In this document: positions 5,445 through 31,016 of the stretch, piece after piece
Numbering within the stretch: position 1 is the first letter of the stretch
Layout of the letters: each line of letters starts with the position of its first letter
DNA from: Pseudomonadota bacterium
Lineage (GTDB): Bacteria; Pseudomonadota; Gammaproteobacteria; Burkholderiales; Methylophilaceae
Direction of reading: 5' to 3'
DNA: 64,000 bases
NCBI GenBank assembly: GCA_029556915.1
Contig: JAKQIT010000083.1
Location: 39,587 to 103,586 of the forward strand
Notes under the pieces: model-generated
Told to the model about the DNA's origin: nothing
The model's input: only the letters and a program-made list of their open reading frames with translations
Database searches by the model: none
Made by a program: the position numbers and the translations under genes

Positions 5445-6872
5445 ATGGCATACAGAAATAATTACTCACGAACGTTACTACAAAGACGTAGTAATCTGAG
5501 TAACATTGTGCAGCAAATACTGGATGGCGCGGCTGTGATAAGCGCATCTTACGCGCTGATTGCGCATCACTTAGGTGGCGTTTACTCTGCCTACATCAAT
5601 TTTATTTTGGTGCAGTTAGTCGTGATGGCTTTGGTGTATGACCGCTTTGCGATTTATCGCAGCAATGGGCATTTGGTTGATAAAGGCCTGAACTTACTCA
5701 AAGCTTGGGCAATAACTTTCTTAATATTGATTGTTATTGGATTTTTAACCAAGCAAAGTGCCAATTACTCGCGCTATTTAATGATGCAGTTATTTGTGCT
5801 GGGCTTTGCAACGCAATTGTTGATGCACCTGTTGTTTAGGTTGGTGTACCAAAGATTGATTCGCAACCAGCAAACAGAAAAGGTATTGATTGTTGGTCAA
5901 AGTCGTCTTGCCTATTATTTGCAGCATAAAATTTCAGACAATCCTTGGGTGGGCGAGCAAGTGGCTGGTTTTGTCACTATTCCAGGCGAAGAATCTAAAG
6001 GCTCAGGTCGCAAAGCTGCAGGTCGCAAAAATGATCCAACAATTTTAGGTAGCATCGATGCGTTGCCAACGCTGATTGACGAACATGAAATCAGCACGGT
6101 TTACATTGTCACACAACTTAAATCGGCTGTTGATCTGGAAACCATCTATGCGGAAATTCTGGACAAACACGTAGCAATTCATTGGATTCCAGATATTTTC
6201 TCCTTACGCTTAGTGAACCACAGCGTGAAAGAGATTTCTGGCATCCCAGTGCTCACGCTTGCTGAAACACCATTGATTGGCATGCGTTTGCTATTAAAAT
6301 CGATTGTTGACAAAGTGTTATCAGTTCTTATTTTGCTGATGATTTTCCCGATTTTGATTTTGGTAGCGATTGCCGTCAAACTAGACAGCCCTGGTCCCAT
6401 ATTTTTTAGGCAAAGCCGCGCGGGCTGGAGTGGAAAAACCTTTAAAATTTGGAAATTCCGCAGCATGTACGTGCATCAAGAAGAAGCGGGCAAGCTTAAG
6501 CAAGCTTCAAAAGGTGATAGCCGCATTACCCGTGTAGGCGCATTTATCCGCAAAACCAGCTTAGACGAGCTACCACAAGTGTTCAATGTGCTGACAGGTG
6601 ATATGTCATTAGTTGGCCCGCGTCCGCATGCTATTCAACACGATAAAGAATATTCAGAGCGAATTTCAGAATACTTTACCCGTCACCAAATTAAACCTGG
6701 CATTACTGGCTTAGCGCAAGTGCGCGGTTTGCGTGGTGAAACGACAGATATTGAACAAATGGTATTGCGTATTGAATCTGACATTGAGTACATCAACAAC
6801 TGGTCAATTTGGTTAGACATTTCAATCTTATTCCGTACCGTATTTGCATTTACTGGCAAGGGTGCGTATTAA
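5445..6872 (+). CDS. epsB: EpsB-type undecaprenyl-phosphate sugar-1-phosphate transferase
   Basis: Polyprenyl phosphoglycosyltransferase (WcaJ/EpsB family, 475 residues) that loads the first sugar, probably glucose-1-P, onto undecaprenyl phosphate at the inner membrane. Four N-terminal membrane segments (about 25-135) are followed by a cytoplasmic nucleotide-fold domain (about 145-250) and a membrane hairpin near 285-312. The catalytic bacterial sugar-transferase domain carries [13 protein letters not shown], the DE pair in [15 protein letters not shown] and PGITGLAQV. It follows epsA by 53 bp and has its own extended -10 promoter. Sugar specificity cannot be read from sequence. Confidence 0.92.
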
Positions 6873-16994: not shown

Positions 16995-18350
16995 CTATAA
17001 GTAATTTAAACTACGAAACACAAAGAATGTAACGACAGTTGAAATAGCCAAAAATGGCAAATCAATCGCGGGTTGCCATAAGCCTGCTCTTTTGTGCATC
17101 ACGTAGGCTTGCACTGGATATATAAGCCAATAAATTCCTGCCAATGCCAGAATAACGCCCTTTTCCCCATAATACTGATAGCCAATATAAATGGCCACGA
17201 TTTGCAAAACAATTTGTATCGCTTGAATGGCCGTGGCCGCACGTACCTCATCTTTGGCAAAAAGCACCCCTGTATAAGAGCCAACCACCACAGCAGCCAA
17301 AGAACCCATGCCTAAAATACGCAACAACACACCGGTTTCTTTATAACGCTCATCGTAAATAAGCCACATAAATTGATCGCCAAAAAAAGTGAAAAAGAAA
17401 GCAGCCAAACCTCCGAGACCTACCATACCAAGCCGCGCTTTGGTGAGTAATTTAGGCATTTTCTCTGGGTGATTACGCATTACTTCAGCATATGCTGGGA
17501 ACAAGGTTTTAACAGCAAGCACCAACATTGCTTGCCAAAAAATTAGGCTCATTGTGCTTGCTAAAGTATAAAACGCCAGCATTTTGACCGTTAAAAACTT
17601 GGCTACAAATAGCTTAACGCCCTCACCCGCTAAAAAAGTCATCGACGAGCTGATAAATATCCAACTGCCAAACCCAAATAAAGCCTTTAGCGAGGCCTTT
17701 TCCCAAGCAAATCGGTTGTGATCTCCTGGTAAATAATAATGACTCGCCACCATTTTAAGAAAACTTCCAATCAGCATGCCCCATACTAGCGCCCATATTG
17801 CTTCATGCTCAGGGCTATGCCATACATGCTTGTGCATATAAGCCAGCCAAATGGTGACAATTAAACTCACAATATAAGTAATTAACTCTATGAGCGTGGC
17901 TTTGCCCATTTGTAAATCGCGGTTTGCCGTGGCTAGTTTTGTGGAATTAAAACCTGCAATAATTGCACTCGTTCCCACAACAGGTAGCAGAGTACTTAAC
18001 ATGGGATGTTGATAAAATGCGGCAAAATAAGGCGCAGAAATAAGAATGGCTAAAAAAATTAAGAAGCCTTGAATAACTTGTAATGTCCATGCTGTATTCA
18101 GAAAAGTGGCTTCATGCCCTCTTTCATTTTGCACGATGCTTGGTTGAATACCAAGATCAGACATCATAATCAAACCCGTCATTACCGTTTGGACAATCGC
18201 CATTAGACCAAAGGCTTCCGGAAACAATAATCTAGTCAAAATTAAGTTAGAAGCAAGACGTAGTATTTGTTGTAAGCCATAGCCTGCCGTTACCCAAATA
18301 CCCGAATTAATGGCTCTTTTTTTTAAATTATTTTTTTTGACTTTAGTCAT
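16995..18350 (-). CDS. Wzx-like polysaccharide flippase
   Basis: A 451-residue polytopic membrane protein of the MOP superfamily, with about 12-14 hydrophobic segments. The opening NSGIWVTAGYGLQQILRLASNLILTRLLFPEAFGL-type start (first residues KKRAINSGIWVTAGYGLQQI) and the downstream LGIQPSIVQ are typical of oligosaccharide flippases. It probably flips the undecaprenyl-linked repeat unit to the periplasm before polymerisation by the neighbouring ligase/polymerase proteins. A Lys-rich N terminus precedes the first membrane segment. It is transcribed away from the divergent polymerase gene at 18476. Confidence 0.9.
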   Translation of the reverse strand: MTKVKKNNLKKRAINSGIWVTAGYGLQQILRLASNLILTRLLFPEAFGLMAIVQTVMTGLIMMSDLGIQPSIVQNERGHEATFLNTAWTLQVIQGFLIFLAILISAPYFAAFYQHPMLSTLLPVVGTSAIIAGFNSTKLATANRDLQMGKATLIELITYIVSLIVTIWLAYMHKHVWHSPEHEAIWALVWGMLIGSFLKMVASHYYLPGDHNRFAWEKASLKALFGFGSWIFISSSMTFLAGEGVKLFVAKFLTVKMLAFYTLASTMSLIFWQAMLVLAVKTLFPAYAEVMRNHPEKMPKLLTKARLGMVGLGGLAAFFFTFFGDQFMWLIYDERYKETGVLLRILGMGSLAAVVVGSYTGVLFAKDEVRAATAIQAIQIVLQIVAIYIGYQYYGEKGVILALAGIYWLIYPVQAYVMHKRAGLWQPAIDLPFLAISTVVTFFVFRSLNYL

Positions 18351-18475: not shown

Positions 18476-20578
18476 ATGCCAGAACAATTCCGATCCCTCA
18501 CCTATATTGTGCTACTTGCGCTGATTGCGTTCTTTTTTGCGAAAAAAATTACAGCATCTGTGGTAAGTGAGCAACAATTTAATCGGTGGCGCAACACATG
18601 GATAGCCTTGACCTTAATTGTATTTTTGGCAGGGAACTTTTGGATATACGCCGTTTTGGGAGGATTGCTACTATATTATGTAGCCAAGCAAGAGCAAAAC
18701 CCCTTCGCGTTGTTTTTTGTATTATTGCTCGCCATCCCAAGAATCAGTGACAAAATTCCTGGACTAGGCATTGTAAATTTTCTTATCGAAGTAGATTACA
18801 TCACCATTCTATCGCTGACGGTGCTACTGCCTGCCTATTTGTCATTACGCACAAAGCGCGAGACTGCCCCCTTTCTAAGTTTTTGGCCTGACAGACTAAT
18901 TTTTGCCTATATGATCATAGTCGTGTTACTACTTATGCGCGACACTACCACCACGGACGCCTTGCGTATGGTAATACGAAATTTTACCGACATTTTCTTA
19001 CCGTATTATGTCGCCAGCAGAAGTCTTAAGCATGTACAGCAATTCAAAGAGGTGTTGGCAGCTTTTGTTATCGCAGCAATGGTGGCTGGTGTAATGGCAA
19101 TGTTTGAATTTAGTCGTTTTTGGTTGTTATACGCCAACCTTAAAGGCTTTTTAGGTGTGCCATGGGAAATGGGCTCTTACCTTGGCCGTGGTGACAATCT
19201 CCGAGCTCTAGTCACGCTAGGCCAGCCTATTATTTTAGGTTATGTCATGCTTCTCGCGCTCGGATTTTACATATTTACGTCTAAAGCAGCTACATCACGT
19301 CCTTTACGTTGGTTAGGGTGGAGTCTTATCTTAGGTGGTCTTTATGTACCGCTATCCCGTGGCCCGTGGGTAGGTGCAGTAGTGTTGACTGTCATTTTTA
19401 TTATTGTCAGTCCAAATAAAATTAAAAATATTGCTAAGCTTGCGGCGGCTTCAGTTCTATCAGCAATCGTATTAAACATCATTCCTGCTGGGCAGAAAAT
19501 AATCAATTTAATACCTTTTATAGGTGAAACAGAAGTTGAAAATGTGGACTATCGCGTCCGTCTGATTAACGCCGCATTTATCGTATTTCAACGTTATCCA
19601 TTATTTGGTTCAACTAAATTCAAAGAAGAACTGGCTGCACTTGGTATGACGCAGGGCGAAGGCATTGTCGATATTGTGAATCAATATCTTTGGATAGTTT
19701 TAGAACGTGGCTTAATAGGCTTGATGCTTTTCGTTGGTTTTTTTAGCATCATTATTTTCCAACTCTTCGTGCATATAAATAATTCCATAAACGAAAACAA
19801 TGACACTCTTTTACTCGGGCGTACTTTATTTGCTTGCTTAATAGCAACAATGGTGACTATAACGACAGTTAGTGGCATATTAGTATTACCAGTCATCTAT
19901 TGGGCGCTTGGTGGATTGAGCCTTGCATATTGCCGAATGCTTGAGTTGCAAGAAGTCAGCGTACAGGCCAATGAATTTAAATCCTATAGACTGGCATTCG
20001 ACGCAATGCCTGCACTGCCCGCTACTAAACTTGTATTTAGCACGCTCACAACGCATCGCGTTATCGTAGATAACAAACCAATTCCCCGCGTTAAATTGAA
20101 ATCAAAAACTAACAGTAACCAAGACGATATTAGTACAAAATTTACGCCCTCACCAAGAGAAATCAAACCTAGCAAATCACCAAAACCAGAATTAGGAAGC
20201 ATCTATCAACAAGCCAGAAAAATCAGCCCAAACCCTCAACAGGCTTATTTTGCCAAAACTTTGCAGTTACCTCCAAAAACCAAAGTGCAAACTAATGAGT
20301 CTTTGATTAAAGTAGGTAAAGTGCGTGTTTTAAGTGGCTCCAATTCAGGTAAAGAATTTGTTCTAAGTAAAGTATTGAGTAAATTAGGTAAAACAGGCGT
20401 GCAAGTAGCCATTGTATCCAGAAGAAATAGCGGTTATTACCTCACCCATTTAGAGGGTAAGGTCTATCCAATTGTTAACAATATTAGCATTGGTGAACGT
20501 GCTCATCTTTTAAATGACCAAGATATGATTGAAATTTTAGGGATAAAAATGCAGTTTCATAGCGATGAATCAGCGTAG
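18476..20578 (+). CDS. O-antigen-ligase/polymerase-like membrane protein with C-terminal FHA-like domain
   Basis: A 700-residue two-part protein. Residues 1-490 are a polytopic Wzy/WaaL-type protein with about 12 hydrophobic segments, a large periplasmic loop, and the SRGPW motif near 295. It is closely similar throughout to the next gene. Residues 500-608 form a polar, Lys/Pro/Ser-rich linker. Residues 610-700 look like an FHA domain: a beta-rich stretch, LGKTGVQ (the GR-like turn), VSRRNSG (S648/R649), VNN (about 667-669), NDQDMIEIL. The usual His of SRxH is replaced by Asn. An FHA tail could bind a phosphothreonine partner or act as an assembly module; its side of the membrane depends on the topology. 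Confidence 0.82.
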   Translation: MPEQFRSLTYIVLLALIAFFFAKKITASVVSEQQFNRWRNTWIALTLIVFLAGNFWIYAVLGGLLLYYVAKQEQNPFALFFVLLLAIPRISDKIPGLGIVNFLIEVDYITILSLTVLLPAYLSLRTKRETAPFLSFWPDRLIFAYMIIVVLLLMRDTTTTDALRMVIRNFTDIFLPYYVASRSLKHVQQFKEVLAAFVIAAMVAGVMAMFEFSRFWLLYANLKGFLGVPWEMGSYLGRGDNLRALVTLGQPIILGYVMLLALGFYIFTSKAATSRPLRWLGWSLILGGLYVPLSRGPWVGAVVLTVIFIIVSPNKIKNIAKLAAASVLSAIVLNIIPAGQKIINLIPFIGETEVENVDYRVRLINAAFIVFQRYPLFGSTKFKEELAALGMTQGEGIVDIVNQYLWIVLERGLIGLMLFVGFFSIIIFQLFVHINNSINENNDTLLLGRTLFACLIATMVTITTVSGILVLPVIYWALGGLSLAYCRMLELQEVSVQANEFKSYRLAFDAMPALPATKLVFSTLTTHRVIVDNKPIPRVKLKSKTNSNQDDISTKFTPSPREIKPSKSPKPELGSIYQQARKISPNPQQAYFAKTLQLPPKTKVQTNESLIKVGKVRVLSGSNSGKEFVLSKVLSKLGKTGVQVAIVSRRNSGYYLTHLEGKVYPIVNNISIGERAHLLNDQDMIEILGIKMQFHSDESA

Positions 20579-20742
20579 CATAGAATAATTTACCGCGTAA
20601 AACTTCATGATATTTAATAAGATTGGTAGAATATAAGCGCTGTCATTTGGTTGAGATAAATCTGATTTATGATTTTTTAATCTTAATAACTAGCAACCAT
20701 TATTAAACCCCACTATTGCGTAACAACACATATATAACCACT

Positions 20743-22281
20743 ATGCCAGAACAATTAAGATCCCTAATCTATATCGTGTTGCTAGCACTCATTGCTTTCT
20801 TTTTTGCCAAAAAAATTACGGCATCAATAGTGAGTGAGCAGCAGTTTAATCGCTGGCGCAATACTTGGATTGCGCTAACATTTATTGCATTTTTGGCTGG
20901 CAATTTTTGGGTATATGCGATTTTATGTGCGCTGTTACTGTGGTATGTGGGCAAAAGAGAACAAAATGCGATTGCAATGTTTTTTGTATTACTGTTTGCT
21001 TTGCCACGTATTAGCAATCAAATTCCAGGTATGGGAATTGTGAACTTTCTATTTAATATTGACTATGTCAGTATTTTATCTTTCACTGTGCTACTCCCAG
21101 CATACTTGTCATTACGAAGTGAGCGTGAAACAGCACCATTTTTAACATACTGGGCAGATAAGCTGTTATTGGCTTATATGTTGTTAGACGTAGCTCTACT
21201 TATGCGTGACACAACAGTGACAGATGCGATGCGAGCGGGGGTTTCTAACTTTACCGATATTTTCTTACCCTACTATGTTGCAAGCCGCGGGATTAAAACT
21301 CTACAACAATTTAAAGAAGTCATGGCTGCATTCGTCATTGCTGCCATGGTGGCGGCGATGCACGCCATGTTTGAATATAGCCGCTTTTGGTTGCTGTACG
21401 TTAATCTTAAAAATTATTTAGGTGTAGCATGGGAAATGGGCGGATACCTTGGTCGTGGTGATAGTTTGCGCGCATTGGCTTCTTTAGGCCAGCCAATTGC
21501 ACTAGGCTACATTATGGTCATAGCGCTAGGCAGCTATTTATTTATATCCCACTTCGTTAAAGAAAAATGGCTGAAAATTTTAGGCCTACTCTTGATATTA
21601 GGCGGTCTGTATGCACCACTCTCTCGTGGCCCGTGGATAGGAGCATTATTATTAGTGATTTTGTATATTGTTATTAGCCCGAAAGCAATAAAACGCTTAA
21701 CGATTATGGCCGTATCGGCAGCCATGATAATTCCTATTATTGCCAGTATGCCCATCGGTAAAAAAGTGATGGATATGCTTCCTTTTGTAGGAAAAGTGGA
21801 TGCTGAGAACGTTGATTATCGGGTGCGACTGCTGGATGCCGCTTATACGGTATTTAACAGGTATCCTTTTTTTGGCTCCGTTAAGTATCGTGAAGAGTTG
21901 GCCGAATTGGGGATGGTGCAAGGAGAAGGCATTGTGGATGTAGTGAATACCTACCTTGATGTGGTTTTGGAATATGGTCTTGTTGGATTTGTTTTATACA
22001 TGGGCTTTTTTACAATCATTATTGCAACAATCATCACGGGAATAAAAAAGATAAAAAACAAACAAAGTGATATTCATTTATTAGGTCGCGTACTTTTTGC
22101 TAACCAAATTGCCATTCTAGTCACCATTACATCGGTGAGTAGTATTTTAGTTATTCCTGTAGTCTATTGGGCAGTGGCTGGGCTTGCATTTTCATTCTTA
22201 CGCATCGCCCAAGGGTTTGTTGTGATTAAAGAAGACATAAACGCACTGCCAACAATCAGGTTGGCTAACAATTCGTCATAA
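20743..22281 (+). CDS. O-antigen-ligase/polymerase-like membrane protein (paralogue without FHA tail)
   Basis: A 512-residue polytopic protein, clearly a tandem paralogue of the upstream gene: matching starts (MPEQ(F/L)RSL), matching FFFAKKITAS and QQFNRWRNTWIALT, shared GREGDxxRAL-like ligase region (YLGRGDSLRAL) and SRGPW. I choose the ATG at 20743 by alignment to the paralogue; a TTG 27 bp upstream is in frame. It stops after the last membrane segment with a short tail and has no FHA-like domain. It probably polymerises or ligates the EPS. The GH5-like gene follows 30 bp later. Confidence 0.85.
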   Translation: MPEQLRSLIYIVLLALIAFFFAKKITASIVSEQQFNRWRNTWIALTFIAFLAGNFWVYAILCALLLWYVGKREQNAIAMFFVLLFALPRISNQIPGMGIVNFLFNIDYVSILSFTVLLPAYLSLRSERETAPFLTYWADKLLLAYMLLDVALLMRDTTVTDAMRAGVSNFTDIFLPYYVASRGIKTLQQFKEVMAAFVIAAMVAAMHAMFEYSRFWLLYVNLKNYLGVAWEMGGYLGRGDSLRALASLGQPIALGYIMVIALGSYLFISHFVKEKWLKILGLLLILGGLYAPLSRGPWIGALLLVILYIVISPKAIKRLTIMAVSAAMIIPIIASMPIGKKVMDMLPFVGKVDAENVDYRVRLLDAAYTVFNRYPFFGSVKYREELAELGMVQGEGIVDVVNTYLDVVLEYGLVGFVLYMGFFTIIIATIITGIKKIKNKQSDIHLLGRVLFANQIAILVTITSVSSILVIPVVYWAVAGLAFSFLRIAQGFVVIKEDINALPTIRLANNSS

Positions 22282-22311: not shown

Positions 22312-24903
22312 ATGGGCTACTTTAGGTCTTTTTTTAAAACTACACTTTTAATTTTCTTACTATCCTCAGTTTGCGTTCAGGCTAGCACAACTTGGCAAGT
22401 GAGTTTGGATGATGACGTTGGTCTTCCTATACTGAGTAAGGGGGGCGGCAATGCCATGACCTCCTCGTTTATATTTTTTGATAAAAATTATGGTTGGGCA
22501 CATCAAGAAAGTAATTTTAAGGTAATCAATAATGGGCAATACCAACTTAAAGGTGAAAATGCAACTTTAGGCCTTATGCTCAATGCTGCCATTGCTAAAA
22601 GCAATAATCAAAAAATGGTCTGGAATTTTGATCTAGACGCCAAGGCAGGTAGAAAAGATGTCGTTGGTGGCGGGATTGCATTCAAGTTTGATTTGGATAA
22701 CTTTGGTAAATCATTAGGTTCGCCTGAAATTTTTGCGGACAAATCTGGTTGGAGTTGGGGAAAAGGTCAGCAGCGCATTGAAATGCACTTTAACCCTGCC
22801 CCAGCGCATGTTTTTTTCGAACGAGATCAAAAAAATGAAATTCGCGTATATTTTTATCAAGGGCATATTCCAAAAGGTAAGCGCCAATTTCAAGCCACGC
22901 TAACACTTGCCGATGGTGTCTCTATTGCGCCAACTGTGAGTGAGCGCTTTGGAAAAGCTGATCTGTCAGAGTGGACGCCAAACATAATTGACTGGAAATC
23001 ATCCCCAGTAGATTTATCTTTTTTAAATGCGACAGAACTACCTGCTGGAAAACGTGGTTTCATAAAAGCCAAGGGTGAGCAGTTAGTCTTTGAAGATGGC
23101 ACGATTGCAAGGTTTTGGGGTACCAACATTAGTGCCTACACTATTTTTGGCACCCCTAAAGACAATGTTAAGTTGCAAGCAAAGCGTTTATCTGAGTTAG
23201 GTTTTAACTTGGTTCGTATCCACCACTTTGATTCTTTGTGGGTCAACCCCAATATTTTTGGGCAACAATCTAGTAGCACTCAACAAATTAATGAAGATGC
23301 GATGGATAAAATAGATTGGTGGATTAAATGTCTAAAGGACGAAGGTATTTATGTATGGTTAGATTTACATGTTGAGCGACATTTAAAATCAGATGATGGC
23401 ATTCTCAACTTTGATGAAATCACTAAGGGTAATGATAGCGTTGATTTAAAAGGTTATAACTATGTCAACCCGAGCATTTTAAAGGCCATGGCGGCCTTTA
23501 ATGAAGCTTACGTGACTCATATCAATCCATATACTAAAACACGTTTAGCGGATGAACCTGCGATAGTTGCCATGCTGATTACTAATGAAAATGATGTCAC
23601 TAATCATTTTGGTAATAGTTTGTTAGCTGACAAAAATGTGCCGGAGCATAGTAAACGTTATATGACTGCCGCTGAGCAGTTTGCTAAAACCCATCAATTA
23701 CCTGTTGAAACCACATGGCACTCTTGGGAGCATGGTCCATCTAAATTATTCTTGAATGATTTAGAGTATCGTTTTAACACGAGCATGATTCAACACCTAC
23801 GAGGGTTGGGCGTAAAAGTGCCACTTGTTACTACTAGCACTTGGGGTGATAATCCGCTAAGCGCTTTGCCAGCCTTAACTGCGGGCGATATGATTGATGC
23901 ACATGCATATCAACCTTATGGTGCACTCGAAAACAATCCTTTATATAGCGCAAATCTGATCCATTGGCTTGCTGCAGCGCAAGTCGCTGGCAAACCCATG
24001 AGTGTAACTGAGTGGAACGCTGAACCCTTTCCACTACCTGACAGACATAGTTTGCCCATGCTGATAGCTGGACAAGCCAGTATGCAAGGTTGGGATGCAA
24101 TGATGCAATATGCCTACGGGCAAGAGCCAATATCTACGCCTACGCAATGGCAAGGCGGGCCATCCAATTGGAATCTTTACAACGACCCTGCACTGTTGGC
24201 TACCATGCCTGCCGCCGCACTCATGTATCGTCGCCAAGACATCCCTGAGGCTAAAACCACTTATATCCTTAAACCAGACAACCTCTTATTTAATCAACAC
24301 ATTTCACCAAACAACTCTGCTTTTATACGCACAGCGGCAGAGCTTGGAAAACTTCAAATTGCACTGCCAAGTAACAAAGCTTTGCCATGGTTGGTTAAAA
24401 GTCCAATCTCAGAAAAAGCTAAAGTATTTGACGACCCGAATAAATCACTTATCGCAGCTGATAGCCAATCAGTAACCGTTGACAATACTGGCGTAACACG
24501 CAACTGGGATAAGGGCTATCAAACCATTGACACAGTGCGCACACAAGCAGCGATGGGATGGATAGGTGGAGAAAACTTTAAACTATCCGATGTGGAAATT
24601 GCAGCTACCACGCGAAATGCGAGCATCGTAGTTCAAAGCCTAGATGCGCAGCCTATTGCACAATCTAAAAAAATCATGATTAGCTTAGGCGCGCGTTCAA
24701 TACCTAAAACAGCCAATAAATTACCTTTTGTTTCTGAGGCTGTCGAAGGTGTGATAAAAATAAAAGCGTTGCCTGGATTAACCCTTACCAAACAGGGTAT
24801 TTTACAAAAAGGCAAAATAGTAAAAGCGACTTATCAAGATGGCTATTATGTCATCCCTCTGAGCCAAGACTTACAAACTTATTGGTTGACCTTAAGCCAG
24901 TAA
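22312..24903 (+). CDS. Secreted GH5-like glycoside hydrolase
   Basis: An 863-residue exported protein. Signal peptide 1-24 (LLIFLLSSVCVQA). Residues about 25-240 form a beta-rich, carbohydrate-binding-like region. Residues about 245-600 form a (beta/alpha)8 clan-A domain, with GFNLVRIHHFDSLW, the acid/base Glu426 in TNEND and the nucleophile Glu567 in VTEWNAE. A further beta-rich C-terminal region follows. Likely a periplasmic or extracellular endo-glycanase that trims, releases or recycles the EPS made by this locus. Exact GH family is not certain; GH5 is the best fit by active-site pattern. Confidence 0.8.
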   Translation: MGYFRSFFKTTLLIFLLSSVCVQASTTWQVSLDDDVGLPILSKGGGNAMTSSFIFFDKNYGWAHQESNFKVINNGQYQLKGENATLGLMLNAAIAKSNNQKMVWNFDLDAKAGRKDVVGGGIAFKFDLDNFGKSLGSPEIFADKSGWSWGKGQQRIEMHFNPAPAHVFFERDQKNEIRVYFYQGHIPKGKRQFQATLTLADGVSIAPTVSERFGKADLSEWTPNIIDWKSSPVDLSFLNATELPAGKRGFIKAKGEQLVFEDGTIARFWGTNISAYTIFGTPKDNVKLQAKRLSELGFNLVRIHHFDSLWVNPNIFGQQSSSTQQINEDAMDKIDWWIKCLKDEGIYVWLDLHVERHLKSDDGILNFDEITKGNDSVDLKGYNYVNPSILKAMAAFNEAYVTHINPYTKTRLADEPAIVAMLITNENDVTNHFGNSLLADKNVPEHSKRYMTAAEQFAKTHQLPVETTWHSWEHGPSKLFLNDLEYRFNTSMIQHLRGLGVKVPLVTTSTWGDNPLSALPALTAGDMIDAHAYQPYGALENNPLYSANLIHWLAAAQVAGKPMSVTEWNAEPFPLPDRHSLPMLIAGQASMQGWDAMMQYAYGQEPISTPTQWQGGPSNWNLYNDPALLATMPAAALMYRRQDIPEAKTTYILKPDNLLFNQHISPNNSAFIRTAAELGKLQIALPSNKALPWLVKSPISEKAKVFDDPNKSLIAADSQSVTVDNTGVTRNWDKGYQTIDTVRTQAAMGWIGGENFKLSDVEIAATTRNASIVVQSLDAQPIAQSKKIMISLGARSIPKTANKLPFVSEAVEGVIKIKALPGLTLTKQGILQKGKIVKATYQDGYYVIPLSQDLQTYWLTLSQ

Positions 24904-26745: not shown

Positions 26746-27561
26746 TCAATCGTAATAATAAGGCTGTGCTTTTGCTTCGGATTTATTGACAACAACCCCT
26801 AAAATATTTGATTTGGTAAGTAAGCGCATCGTATCTGTAATTTCAGCCTCAGTATGCTGACCATCACCTATTACTAACAGTACACAATCAACTTGCGGCA
26901 ACAATACCATTGCATCATCAGCACTTAGAATTGGCGGCAAGTCAAAAATAACCACTCTTGAGTCATAACGCTCTTTAAGCTCAACGACCAAATGCTGTAT
27001 GCTATTAGATGACAATGTTTCAGATGATTGCTTTACTGGTGAGTTGGTAGGTACAACTGTTAAGCGCGGAATTCCTGGGTTAACCATCACTTCAGCTAAA
27101 TCAGCATTTCCTGAAAGAAGATCATTGATTGATTTTGGTTGTTTTAAGCCTAAATATTGCGCAATTCGTGGTTTACGTAAATCAAAATCAACCAACATTG
27201 CAGTTTTTTGAGGCTGCTGGGCAATGCTAATTGCTAAATTGATAGCGACGACAGTTTTACCTGCAGCTGGCGTAGGGGAAATAATTGCTAACGTGCGCCA
27301 TTTATTTTCTTCCATTGTTTGCAGAACTTGTGTGCGCAAAGAATCAAAAATCCAGCTTGAAGGATCATGCTTATTTTGAGCAACAATACGATTTTTTTCC
27401 AAATGCCCTGCGTCAAGTTTAACCACTGCTGTTTCACTATAGACAATGGATTTTAGCTCATCATCTAACTGAATAAATTTAACAGCTTTTTTCGGCTGAT
27501 TGATTTTTTGACCGATTTGCGAGCCTCTAGCTTTACTCAAGGCATCTTTAATTTTTTCCAT
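26746..27561 (-). CDS. epsG: EpsG-type bacterial tyrosine kinase (cytoplasmic ATPase module)
   Basis: A 271-residue BY-kinase that works with the Wzz-type protein EpsF to control chain length and export. Walker A is SPTPAAGKTVVA (95-106, K102), Walker A' is LVDFDLRKP (123-131) and Walker B is VVIFDLPPIL. The C terminus ends in a tyrosine cluster (QPYYYD), the autophosphorylation site typical of these kinases. It is 18 bp downstream of epsF, and the stand-alone cytoplasmic kinase plus separate membrane activator resembles the methanolan and Gram-positive arrangement. Confidence 0.92.
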   Translation of the reverse strand: MEKIKDALSKARGSQIGQKINQPKKAVKFIQLDDELKSIVYSETAVVKLDAGHLEKNRIVAQNKHDPSSWIFDSLRTQVLQTMEENKWRTLAIISPTPAAGKTVVAINLAISIAQQPQKTAMLVDFDLRKPRIAQYLGLKQPKSINDLLSGNADLAEVMVNPGIPRLTVVPTNSPVKQSSETLSSNSIQHLVVELKERYDSRVVIFDLPPILSADDAMVLLPQVDCVLLVIGDGQHTEAEITDTMRLLTKSNILGVVVNKSEAKAQPYYYD

Positions 27562-27579: not shown

Positions 27580-29175
27580 CTAAAATTTAGCAGTAATTTT
27601 AGTTAACAACTCGCCTAGTGGCATAACAAAAATATTTACCAGTACCAATGCCGCTAATAGTATCAATCCAAGCATAGTTAACTTAGAAGCTAATTGGCGC
27701 TTTTTCTGCACCTCTTCAGCGGGGTTTCTAATATAAGGTATTGTGGCGATAGGCTGCATTTTCATAACAGCTGCAAGCGCATCCACTCCTCTGATTCGGC
27801 TATCTAGCATTTCTAACAACACAGCGGAGCCAAGCGCCGCGGCAATTGAGCCAAACAACCCAGCTAGAAGGAGCAACAAGCGATTGGGTTTAATCGGTTT
27901 TTCAGGCAAAATCGGCGCTTCACTCACAACAAAACGCTCGCCTTTGTTTTCCATTTCAATATTTTTGGCTATTTTGGCATTATCTTGTTTCGTTTTTAGC
28001 TCAGCGTATGCCGCTTTTGCATTATCATAATCACGTAGCAAAGTGCCAAGTTCACCTTCAGTTTGTGCCGATTGAATGACTCTACCTTCGATTTGCGCCA
28101 TTTTTTTACGAATGGTACTTTCTTGCCGCTCTAAGAGATTTAACTTTGCGTTGCCACTCTCAATTTGCGCTTGTATCTTGGCAATCATGACAGATTGAGC
28201 GGTTACCGTTTTTTCTGGTTTTCCAGATGACGACTTACTGCCGTCGGCATTTTCTAGCGTTTCAATTCTGCGTTTTAGTGAGCGAACAGTTGGGTGATTC
28301 TCACTATATACGCCATCAAGCTTTTCCAACTCTTGCTTAAGCTTTGCAAGCTCTGAAACACCATTATCGTTAGCTGCTGCAACTCCGCCAGCCTCTAGAC
28401 CAACATTGATTCCTATTCCAGCCTTAGCAGACTCCAGACTTACATCTAGCGCTCGCAACTCGGCTTGAGTAGCGCTGTATTGCCTTTGCGTGTCTCGTAA
28501 GTCTAATTCAAGTCTGTCCAAACTTTCCAAATGCATTTCTTTATGTTCAGGTAAAGAATTTGCATGACCTTGTTTGTATTTAGTAATATCTTTTTCTATT
28601 TTTAGTAATATAACTTTTTGTTTTTCAGCTTCGTTTGCATAAAACTCTGCAGTTTCGTTTGCACGTAACTTACCAGCCTTATCATTTTCTTCTAAAAACA
28701 GCTTTACAATATCATTGGTGACGTTATATACCTCTTCAGGCTTAAAGTATGTGTAAGAGATTTGTACTGCCACCGTCGGCTTGCCCTGCCATGCTTCAGC
28801 TTCAGCTTTTAACAAGTCTGCTTTTATGTTTGCCCTTAATGCAGAAGCCACCTCTATAGCAGGTCTTGGCGCTTTGTCTAGGCCATATAATTTGTATTTT
28901 TCTGCTATTTTAAATAGCTTTTCGTTACTCATCGCCACCTGTTTTAGTGCTTCAAAGCGCTCGGATGCAAATTTTTCTTTTGCATTAGGATCCCCAGATT
29001 GTACTTGCTCTGACTCAATCAGAATTGTCGCACCAGCCTGGTAAACGGCAGGAATTTTAAGGGTCACGGCAATGGCCGCTAAAAACATCAGTATGAAAAC
29101 ACTAATCACCAGGGGAATTCTACGCTTAATGACACTGATATAGTCACCTAACGACATTTCACGTTTTATAGCCAT
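27580..29175 (-). CDS. epsF: EpsF-type chain-length determinant (Wzz/GumC family)
   Basis: A 531-residue polysaccharide co-polymerase of the inner membrane. N-terminal membrane segment at about 17-37 and Wzz domain to about 190, then a long helical/coiled-coil periplasmic region (about 190-410). The proline-rich segment APILPEKPIKPNRLL precedes a membrane span near 433-455, and another hydrophobic span lies near the C terminus. It partners with EpsG. The second C-terminal span is more than the usual two transmembrane segments of classic Wzz, as in GumC/EpsF forms. Confidence 0.9.
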   Translation of the reverse strand: MAIKREMSLGDYISVIKRRIPLVISVFILMFLAAIAVTLKIPAVYQAGATILIESEQVQSGDPNAKEKFASERFEALKQVAMSNEKLFKIAEKYKLYGLDKAPRPAIEVASALRANIKADLLKAEAEAWQGKPTVAVQISYTYFKPEEVYNVTNDIVKLFLEENDKAGKLRANETAEFYANEAEKQKVILLKIEKDITKYKQGHANSLPEHKEMHLESLDRLELDLRDTQRQYSATQAELRALDVSLESAKAGIGINVGLEAGGVAAANDNGVSELAKLKQELEKLDGVYSENHPTVRSLKRRIETLENADGSKSSSGKPEKTVTAQSVMIAKIQAQIESGNAKLNLLERQESTIRKKMAQIEGRVIQSAQTEGELGTLLRDYDNAKAAYAELKTKQDNAKIAKNIEMENKGERFVVSEAPILPEKPIKPNRLLLLLAGLFGSIAAALGSAVLLEMLDSRIRGVDALAAVMKMQPIATIPYIRNPAEEVQKKRQLASKLTMLGLILLAALVLVNIFVMPLGELLTKITAKF

Positions 29176-30449: not shown

Positions 30450-31016
30450 TTATGGTACAAGTATCGTATCACCAGGCATAAGTGTGATGTTGCTATCCAA
30501 ATGATCACCTTTAATTAGTTGATCGTAATGAATAGGGATTGCTTTCTGCCCTTGTGGAGTAACTCTGAGTACTTTTATAGCACCTTTATCAGCAAATTTG
30601 TCTAATCCACCAGCCATACTGATTGCCGTTAATACTGTCGTAGGCCCAGTCATCAGCACTTGCCCAGGCTTCAATACTTTCCCAAGCACATGTGCAACAT
30701 TACCTTCAATTTTTGCTATTACTACAGACACTTGTGGGTCAGGCAAGTAAGTTTTCAGTCTTTCGGCAATCTTTTTTTCAGCTTCAGTTGAAGTCAAACC
30801 AATCACTTCCACACGTCCAGCAAGTGGGTAAGTGATGCTCCCATCTGGTAAAACAAGACTTTCCTTTTGCATTTTATCTTCACCCCAAACAGAAACTTGA
30901 ATCAAATCTCCGTGGCGTAACTTATAACTTTGCGGTACATCTGCAGCTTGAGCAACTGAAGCAGTCATCATAAAAATTTGTACTATCATTAACCACAATA
31001 TTGACTTTAGATTCAC
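30450..31016 (-). CDS. epsE: EpsE-type polysaccharide export protein (Wza family)
   Basis: A 188-residue periplasmic/outer-membrane export protein. A signal peptide ends at about AQA (22-24). The Poly_export domain occupies about 30-105 (LRHGDLIQVSVWGED, YPLAGRVEV) and an SLBB-like domain about 108-185 (VLGKVLKPGQV, PGDTILVP). It is short and lacks the lipobox of Wza and the C-terminal amphipathic helix. EpsL may therefore supply the outer-membrane channel. It lies downstream of the PEP-CTERM-like gene with a terminator in between. Confidence 0.9.
   Translation of the reverse strand: MNLKSILWLMIVQIFMMTASVAQAADVPQSYKLRHGDLIQVSVWGEDKMQKESLVLPDGSITYPLAGRVEVIGLTSTEAEKKIAERLKTYLPDPQVSVVIAKIEGNVAHVLGKVLKPGQVLMTGPTTVLTAISMAGGLDKFADKGAIKVLRVTPQGQKAIPIHYDQLIKGDHLDSNITLMPGDTILVP

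Follow-up and report, generated by a model that had tools for sequence, protein, structure and literature searches.

Control of Wzy-type polymerases is known to run through Wzz/Wzc and tyrosine kinases (in part PMC10030265). FHA domains occur at the inner face of a different membrane machine, the type III secretion apparatus, whose YscD, PrgH and MxiG proteins (PF16697) have the FHA fold with a poorly conserved phosphothreonine site. In PMC3635987, PrgH and YscD provide the precedent for membrane-machine FHA domains that lack a working site, and one MxiG study is quoted as having reported phosphopeptide binding. In the mycobacterial FhaA–MviN pair, an FHA module is likewise connected with cell-envelope polysaccharide synthesis at one of its membrane steps; FhaA recognises a pseudokinase in its phosphorylated form (PMC11898655). 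A further relevant group is formed by the tandem-FHA proteins of Beta- and Gammaproteobacteria, of about 250 residues, which have the order FHA1–linker–FHA2 and are encoded beside a PP2C phosphatase. The gene considered here lies in a window of 64,000 nucleotides (the whole stretch of DNA analysed) from contig JAKQIT010000083.1 of a Methylotenera-type genome of the Methylophilaceae, designated G000. It is the first of two tandem polymerase genes, copy 1 and copy 2, and it fuses a Wzy-type core to an FHA domain.

The membrane core of copy 1 is that of the Wzy_C (O-antigen ligase–polymerase) superfamily, PF04932, with its SRGPW and YR motifs and a Wzx/Wzy cluster around it, but the polymerase matches in the other family genomes compared do not extend into the FHA2 part, copy 1 of a second genome, G167, excepted. 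The tail shares the FHA2 domain of the tandem-FHA proteins, which carry a canonical FHA1 and an FEKT-type linker in place of the Wzy core. It has the fold of the YscD group, to which its sequence similarity is low, and in contrast to FhaA, which is separate from MviN, it is fused to its membrane partner and lacks the SxxH segment.

The anatomy of this fusion is solid and unusual. The two copies share their N-termini (both MPEQ.RSL.YIVLLALIAFFFAKKITAS) and are 62.8% identical across their common ~500 residues; counted from the ATG that matches the copy 1 start in the alignment, copy 2 measures 512 residues, the open reading frame program placing its start at an upstream TTG (20716). Copy 1 scores 49.8 bits against PF04932, above the cut-off of 31.7, which places it in Wzy_C. 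It keeps 51 of the 51 columns that are invariant in 13 other polymerase rows (14 of 17 rows used, with L008, L010 and L019 omitted), and 38 of 38 when all 17 rows are used and the 16 others set the standard. By sequence, it is probably an active Wzy-type exopolysaccharide polymerase or ligase. A C-terminal tail of ~200 further residues is present on copy 1 alone, and its final module holds VSRRN, VNN and NDQDMIEIL. All of this agrees with the initial annotation, which had described tandem Wzy/WaaL-like genes with common starts and membrane regions, the first extended by a polar linker and an FHA-like module. A frameshift joining two genes, which that annotation had considered, is excluded by the open frame and by the same fusion in G167; the open reading frame listing and the alignment show both genes intact.

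The domain at the end of the tail has a counterpart in the same genome. From about residue 612 it has 52% identity (E 8.3e-29) with the C-terminal half, here FHA2, of a 248-residue tandem-FHA protein (L155 4446-5192, G000:C16) whose gene adjoins a PP2C phosphatase gene. The N-terminal half, FHA1, is canonical (PF00498, 84 bits). The gene beyond the phosphatase presumably resembles nusB, and PADLOC gave one weak match, to the PP2C protein only. GC content is 42.4% in the window and 43.9% in the C16 stretch, and 35.6% in the FHA2 tail as against 45.3% in the donor FHA2. A scan of the genome contigs with the single tail sequence detected no relative; an alignment-based scan yielded at least 556, of which 80 were retained as named loci and 58 were placed together with the tail in an alignment of 59 rows (A2). 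Of the 21 residues that never vary among the other 58 domains, 19 are found in the tail, which shows V to I and V to L at the remaining two. An FHA2 tree was built from 86 rows (85 distinct, since the G167 tail was entered twice); in it the two tails join each other (96/90) inside a 30-row clade composed nearly entirely of rows from the genus (97/99), next to the FHA2 of their own genome with support that is not strong (84/78). Invariant residues and tree position thus assign the tail, at the level of sequence, to the FHA2 type of PP2C-neighbour tandem-FHA proteins. We read it as a domain captured from such a protein, an origin that goes beyond the initial annotation, and the identity to an own-genome domain together with the recurrence in G167 argues that the observation is not due to chance.

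In its native setting FHA2 is linked to FHA1: of 42 whole-genome loci, 41 have FHA1 upstream of FHA2 within one frame, as do all 80 named loci, some genomes being common to both sets; at the odd locus, L042, the search pattern detected no FHA2. All 15 aligned tandem proteins (alignment A4) keep the G-R, S-G-x-H and N-G-T residues of FHA1, and all 15 have an FEKT, FEQT or LEKT motif in the linker. This combination of a conserved FHA1 site and a linker threonine suggests, by analogy, a GarA-like switch. In the few native neighbourhoods that were read, the FHA2 protein stands beside PP2C (by Pfam in the window genome, by eye at L149, L151, L152 and L154). The copy 1 linker itself contains FAKTLQLPP (window 20249-20275, FAKT at residue 592), which resembles the donor FEKTxxxxP. 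The likeness was noticed post hoc, has a shuffle chance of about 0.012 and is absent in G167, and it is not relied on.

The FHA nature of the tail is recovered by structure and by profile comparison. Pfam and NCBIfam scans accept no domain in it, PF00498 gives no match, and sequence searches of the PDB with the tail found no FHA. An AlphaFold model computed from alignment A2 is all beta, with a mean pLDDT of 87.9 and a pTM of 0.77. Foldseek compared it with the PDB and returned 428 matches at E ≤10, 19 of them at E ≤0.001, with the FHA domains of GarA, OdhI, YscD and Ki67 among the best. Among the best 50 of the 428, 31 have FHA in the printed title, and we take the other 19 (GarA and OdhI complexes, YscD/PscD-type proteins, EmbR and DgcB) to contain FHA domains as well; some titles are incomplete or name the partner protein, and the matched chain was taken as GarA or OdhI from chain lengths. 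Profile–profile comparison of FHA2 (A2) with FHA1 (A4) gives a probability of 95.4 (E 1.8e-8). Individual FHA2 rows match Pfam weakly throughout, 51 of 59 to PF16697 (Yop-YscD_cpl, best E 7.2e-5) and 26 of 59 to PF00498 (best E 3.4e-4), and the tail does not reach the gathering score of the latter. On the model, the end of the tail (residues ~612–697) is a genuine FHA fold. The initial annotation had counted a profile search without FHA against its own reading, and the Pfam search indeed shows none; that miss is overruled by the predicted structure and by the profile–profile match to canonical FHA.

Core and domain are separated by the K/P/S/T-rich linker, at about residues 500–608; of the tail, residues 510–607 are predicted to be disordered and FHA2 is well modelled alone, so that a flexible inner tether would be the simplest picture. 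The full-length model is weak for the polymerase part (pLDDT 58.7, two polymerase rows), and membrane topology was therefore not drawn from it. With 31 K/R, 15 D/E and no Cys in 200 residues, the tail forms a hydrophilic, basic stretch. This charge suggests a cytoplasmic location, as does the analogy with WzyE, in which a C-terminal tag is found on the cytoplasmic side of the Wzz cavity (PMC10030265).

The phosphothreonine site of canonical FHA domains (GR, SxxH, NG) is not found in the tail. Where FHA1 has one strand and the Ser-Gly of SGEH, FHA2 shows a gap of 12 residues, and Val occupies the His column. GR is replaced by GK; of NG, the Asn is retained. The stretch LGK..xQVA is ungapped, of equal length and with Val in the His column in all 59 aligned FHA2 rows; the loss of SxxH is therefore a trait of the FHA2 family and not specific to copy 1. 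In the alignment, the tail's VSRR falls in the strand that follows the SxxH segment, a position at which FHA2 rows mostly read ITK, ITR or similar. The proposal that VSRRN is an SRxH site with its His changed to Asn was consequently a mis-register. What the initial annotation had drawn from it, that phosphothreonine binding may be altered or lost, agrees with the present picture, as do its Wzy/WaaL assignment, the FHA fold, the tail-less paralogue and the possible docking function; its more specific idea of docking to the Wzz/export machinery is a guess. By sequence, FHA2 is a common FHA type, blind to phosphorylation and hardly detected by Pfam, and docking is a likelier role for the tail than phosphothreonine binding.

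The same arrangement is found in G167, a fragmented metagenome-assembled genome (430 contigs, 91% complete) in which a separate FHA1–FHA2 gene was not seen. Its contig C145 starts within copy 1; the tail follows, then copy 2, which is intact, and a GH5-like gene. The two tails are identical at 87 of 188 aligned residues and have a juxtamembrane motif in common. The G167 polymerase copies (L039 and L036) do not differ at all in the first ~125 bases of the contig but diverge sharply beyond them, which could reflect gene conversion or an assembly effect. In the full-length polymerase tree the window copies 1 and 2 form a group (100/99) that excludes G167 copy 2; when only the last ~120 residues of the polymerase are used, the two copies 2 form a group (84/69) and the copies 1 fall outside it. 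This conflict would be accounted for by conversion between copies. The sequences make it likely, though they do not prove, that there was a single duplication, after which copy 1 acquired FHA2, and that this preceded the separation of the two species.

The fusion is rare and the FHA2 domain widespread. The 700-residue protein is matched by 61 of 150 family genomes at E ≤1e-10, and all polymerase-type matches in these 150 apart from copy 1 end by query residue 521, short of FHA2. Within the genus, 3 of 52 genomes have a polymerase match at E ≤1e-20: G000 and G167, each with the pair, and G131, with a single gene and no tail. FHA2 is found in 73 of 187 family genomes and at least 224 of 399 order genomes (E ≤0.001), and in at least 148 of 369 class genomes (E ≤1e-5). 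Beyond G000 and G167, no Wzy–FHA2 fusion was seen in the 187 family genomes, judged by frame length, which may overlook broken fusions (the G167 tail frame has only 277 residues) and was the sole basis for family rows without a fetched locus; none occurs among the matches listed for the 399 order and 369 class genomes. The survey for the pair in Methylophilaceae that the initial annotation had proposed thus adds one genome. The linker was matched below E 0.02 only in G000 and G167 among the 187 (E 2.9e-14 in G167; 0.028 for the best of 25 others). The part of the literature that was searched holds no description of a Wzy–FHA fusion, although one may nonetheless have been published.

Long frames in other genomes were considered as further candidates. 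Six order frames above 400 residues, besides that of the window, are among the matches listed; the five that were read (G532, G400, G362, G214 and G265, all but G462) proved to be ordinary tandem-FHA proteins, long through GC-rich upstream read-through or long linkers. The four class frames of that length listed besides the query's own (G807, G718, G693 and G828), and the shorter G923 and G879, are all tandem FHA. Three class loci (L196, L197 and L200) encode a tandem-FHA protein with a further C-terminal domain, which in L196, the one scanned, is PilZ (Pfam E 2e-15).

The polymerase pair stands between an opposite-strand Wzx-type flippase and a GH5-like gene (Table 1), and a similar GH5-like gene follows Wzy in G167 and G131, as judged by eye. 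Glycosyltransferases are also present. With initiating transferase, flippase, Wzy, PCP and export protein all found, the cluster is, by gene content, of the Wzx/Wzy-dependent exopolysaccharide type.

Table 1. Features of the copy 1 locus and of the surrounding exopolysaccharide cluster (window coordinates).
Feature	Position	Strand	Basis
Copy 1 open reading frame	18476-20578	+	700 aa, ATG start, open frame
Copy 1 Wzy_C-type polymerase/ligase core, residues 1-495	18476..19960	+	PF04932 E 4.1e-13
Juxtamembrane segment and K/P/S/T-rich linker, about residues 496-610	19961..20305	+	pLDDT < 50 at 510-607
FHA2 pseudo-FHA domain, about residues 612-700	20309..20575	+	52% identity to own-genome FHA2; AlphaFold; Foldseek
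Copy 2, paralogous Wzy_C polymerase/ligase without tail	20743..22281	+	PF04932 E 9.7e-14; groups with copy 1, 100/99
Wzx-type flippase (Polysacc_synt_3)	16995..18350	-	PF13440 E 1e-44
Glycoside hydrolase family 5-like protein after the polymerase pair	22312..24903	+	PF00150 E 8.1e-8
Exopolysaccharide tyrosine autokinase-like protein (BY-kinase)	26746..27561	-	TIGR03018 165.7 bits, under curated cut-off 230.65
Wzz/PCP chain-length determinant	27580..29175	-	PF02706 30.2 bits (cut-off 25.5); TIGR03007 203 bits, below cut-off
Wza-like polysaccharide export protein	30450..31016	-	PF02563 E 2.5e-24
Undecaprenyl-phosphate glucose phosphotransferase, starts repeat unit	5445..6872	+	TIGR03023 471 bits, above cut-off

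An even chance is given to the reading in which copy 1 is a working Wzy-type polymerase (or ligase) joined to the FHA2 of its own genome, which would serve as a cytoplasmic docking module independent of phosphorylation. It is a more tentative proposal that the captured pseudo-FHA wires the polymerase to a Ser/Thr kinase–phosphatase circuit, so that one paralogue would be switched or localised by phosphorylation state. Through the tail, the polymerase could be drawn to the usual binding partner of FHA2 in a Ser/Thr kinase–phosphatase–FHA circuit or, alternatively, that circuit could be positioned on the inner side of the Wzy/Wzz complex; either way, one of two paralogous polymerases might be recruited or tuned according to phosphorylation state. 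The window genome has three places above the PF00069 kinase cut-off, the third partial, and one kinase place lies beside a second gene that is PP2C-like by eye. As observations apart, L188 1312-2634 (G000:C49) combines leucine-rich repeats, seen by eye, with a Ser/Thr kinase domain (PF00069, 66 bits), and L002 1414-3033 (G000:C86) encodes a 539-residue protein of unusual architecture, with an N-terminal FHA (PF00498, 37.7 bits) and many CxxCH haem-type motifs, seen by eye.

Several points weigh against this interpretation. No FHA2 binding partner turned up in the sequence analysis, charge and analogy are what stands behind the cytoplasmic placement, and the fusion is present in only two genomes. 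The polymerase part of G167 copy 1 contains an in-frame TAA (L039 212-214), either a real nonsense mutation or an assembly error, and that copy may be decaying because of it. Evolution has been faster in copy 1 (0.42) than in copy 2 (0.24), and the tail deviates at 9 of 41 near-invariant FHA2 columns. In the FHA2 tree, where the median end branch is 0.078, the tail branches reach 1.0 and 0.87, and the tree program warns of false long-branch joining. The assembly of the window is rated 5.65% contaminated, so that a common organism for the window contig and C16 is likely, not certain. Finally, the substitution values between the two genomes, which by themselves favour the reading (dN 0.39 and dS 1.71 in FHA2, 87 codons, dN/dS about 0.23; 0.55 and 1.06 in the linker, 96 codons, about 0.5), are limited in that dS, coming from two diverged sequences, is rough, and in the polymerase segments it is saturated.

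Some of these points would also fit a passenger tail, that is, a chance fusion (for instance by rearrangement after duplication) whose FHA2 folds but is idle, on a redundant and slowly decaying copy 1: the in-frame stop, the faster evolution of copy 1 and tail, the altered near-invariant columns and the restriction to 2 of 52 genus genomes. This explanation is doubtful, since copy 1 of the window is open and keeps every invariant polymerase residue counted, nearly all fully invariant FHA2 residues are retained, the two tails share their juxtamembrane motif and close to half of their residues, and amino-acid-changing differences in FHA2 are fewer than silent ones (pN 0.31, pS 0.67). It is unlikely, too, that the tail is an exopolysaccharide scaffold which, much as the YscD and PrgH FHA domains do in type III secretion, docks the polymerase onto other parts of the machine (the Wzz ring, the BY-kinase or further cytoplasmic proteins of the pathway) with no tie to Ser/Thr signalling. 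Such a role would accord with the weak PF16697 matches of most FHA2 rows and YscD among the fold matches, with the position of the WzyE C-terminus at Wzz, and with PrgH, whose FHA is an unlikely phosphothreonine binder (PMC3635987); however, the native FHA2 proteins adjoin PP2C and not exopolysaccharide clusters in the few neighbourhoods read, and Wzy relatives in other genomes do without the tail. A polymerase that binds a phosphorylated partner directly through its tail is highly improbable, since beyond the fold and the retained Asn the strand and Ser of SxxH are missing and Val fills the His column throughout FHA2.

The preferred reading, a polymerase with an FHA2 docking module, bears on exopolysaccharide control. 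A Wzy with a domain that matches part of a Ser/Thr-signalling protein would offer an obvious case in which to test for a second control route besides that of Wzz/Wzc and tyrosine kinases. The wider question concerns the binding target of the widespread, conserved and phospho-blind FHA2, and it becomes testable because the fusion names a candidate process, the polymerisation of exopolysaccharide.

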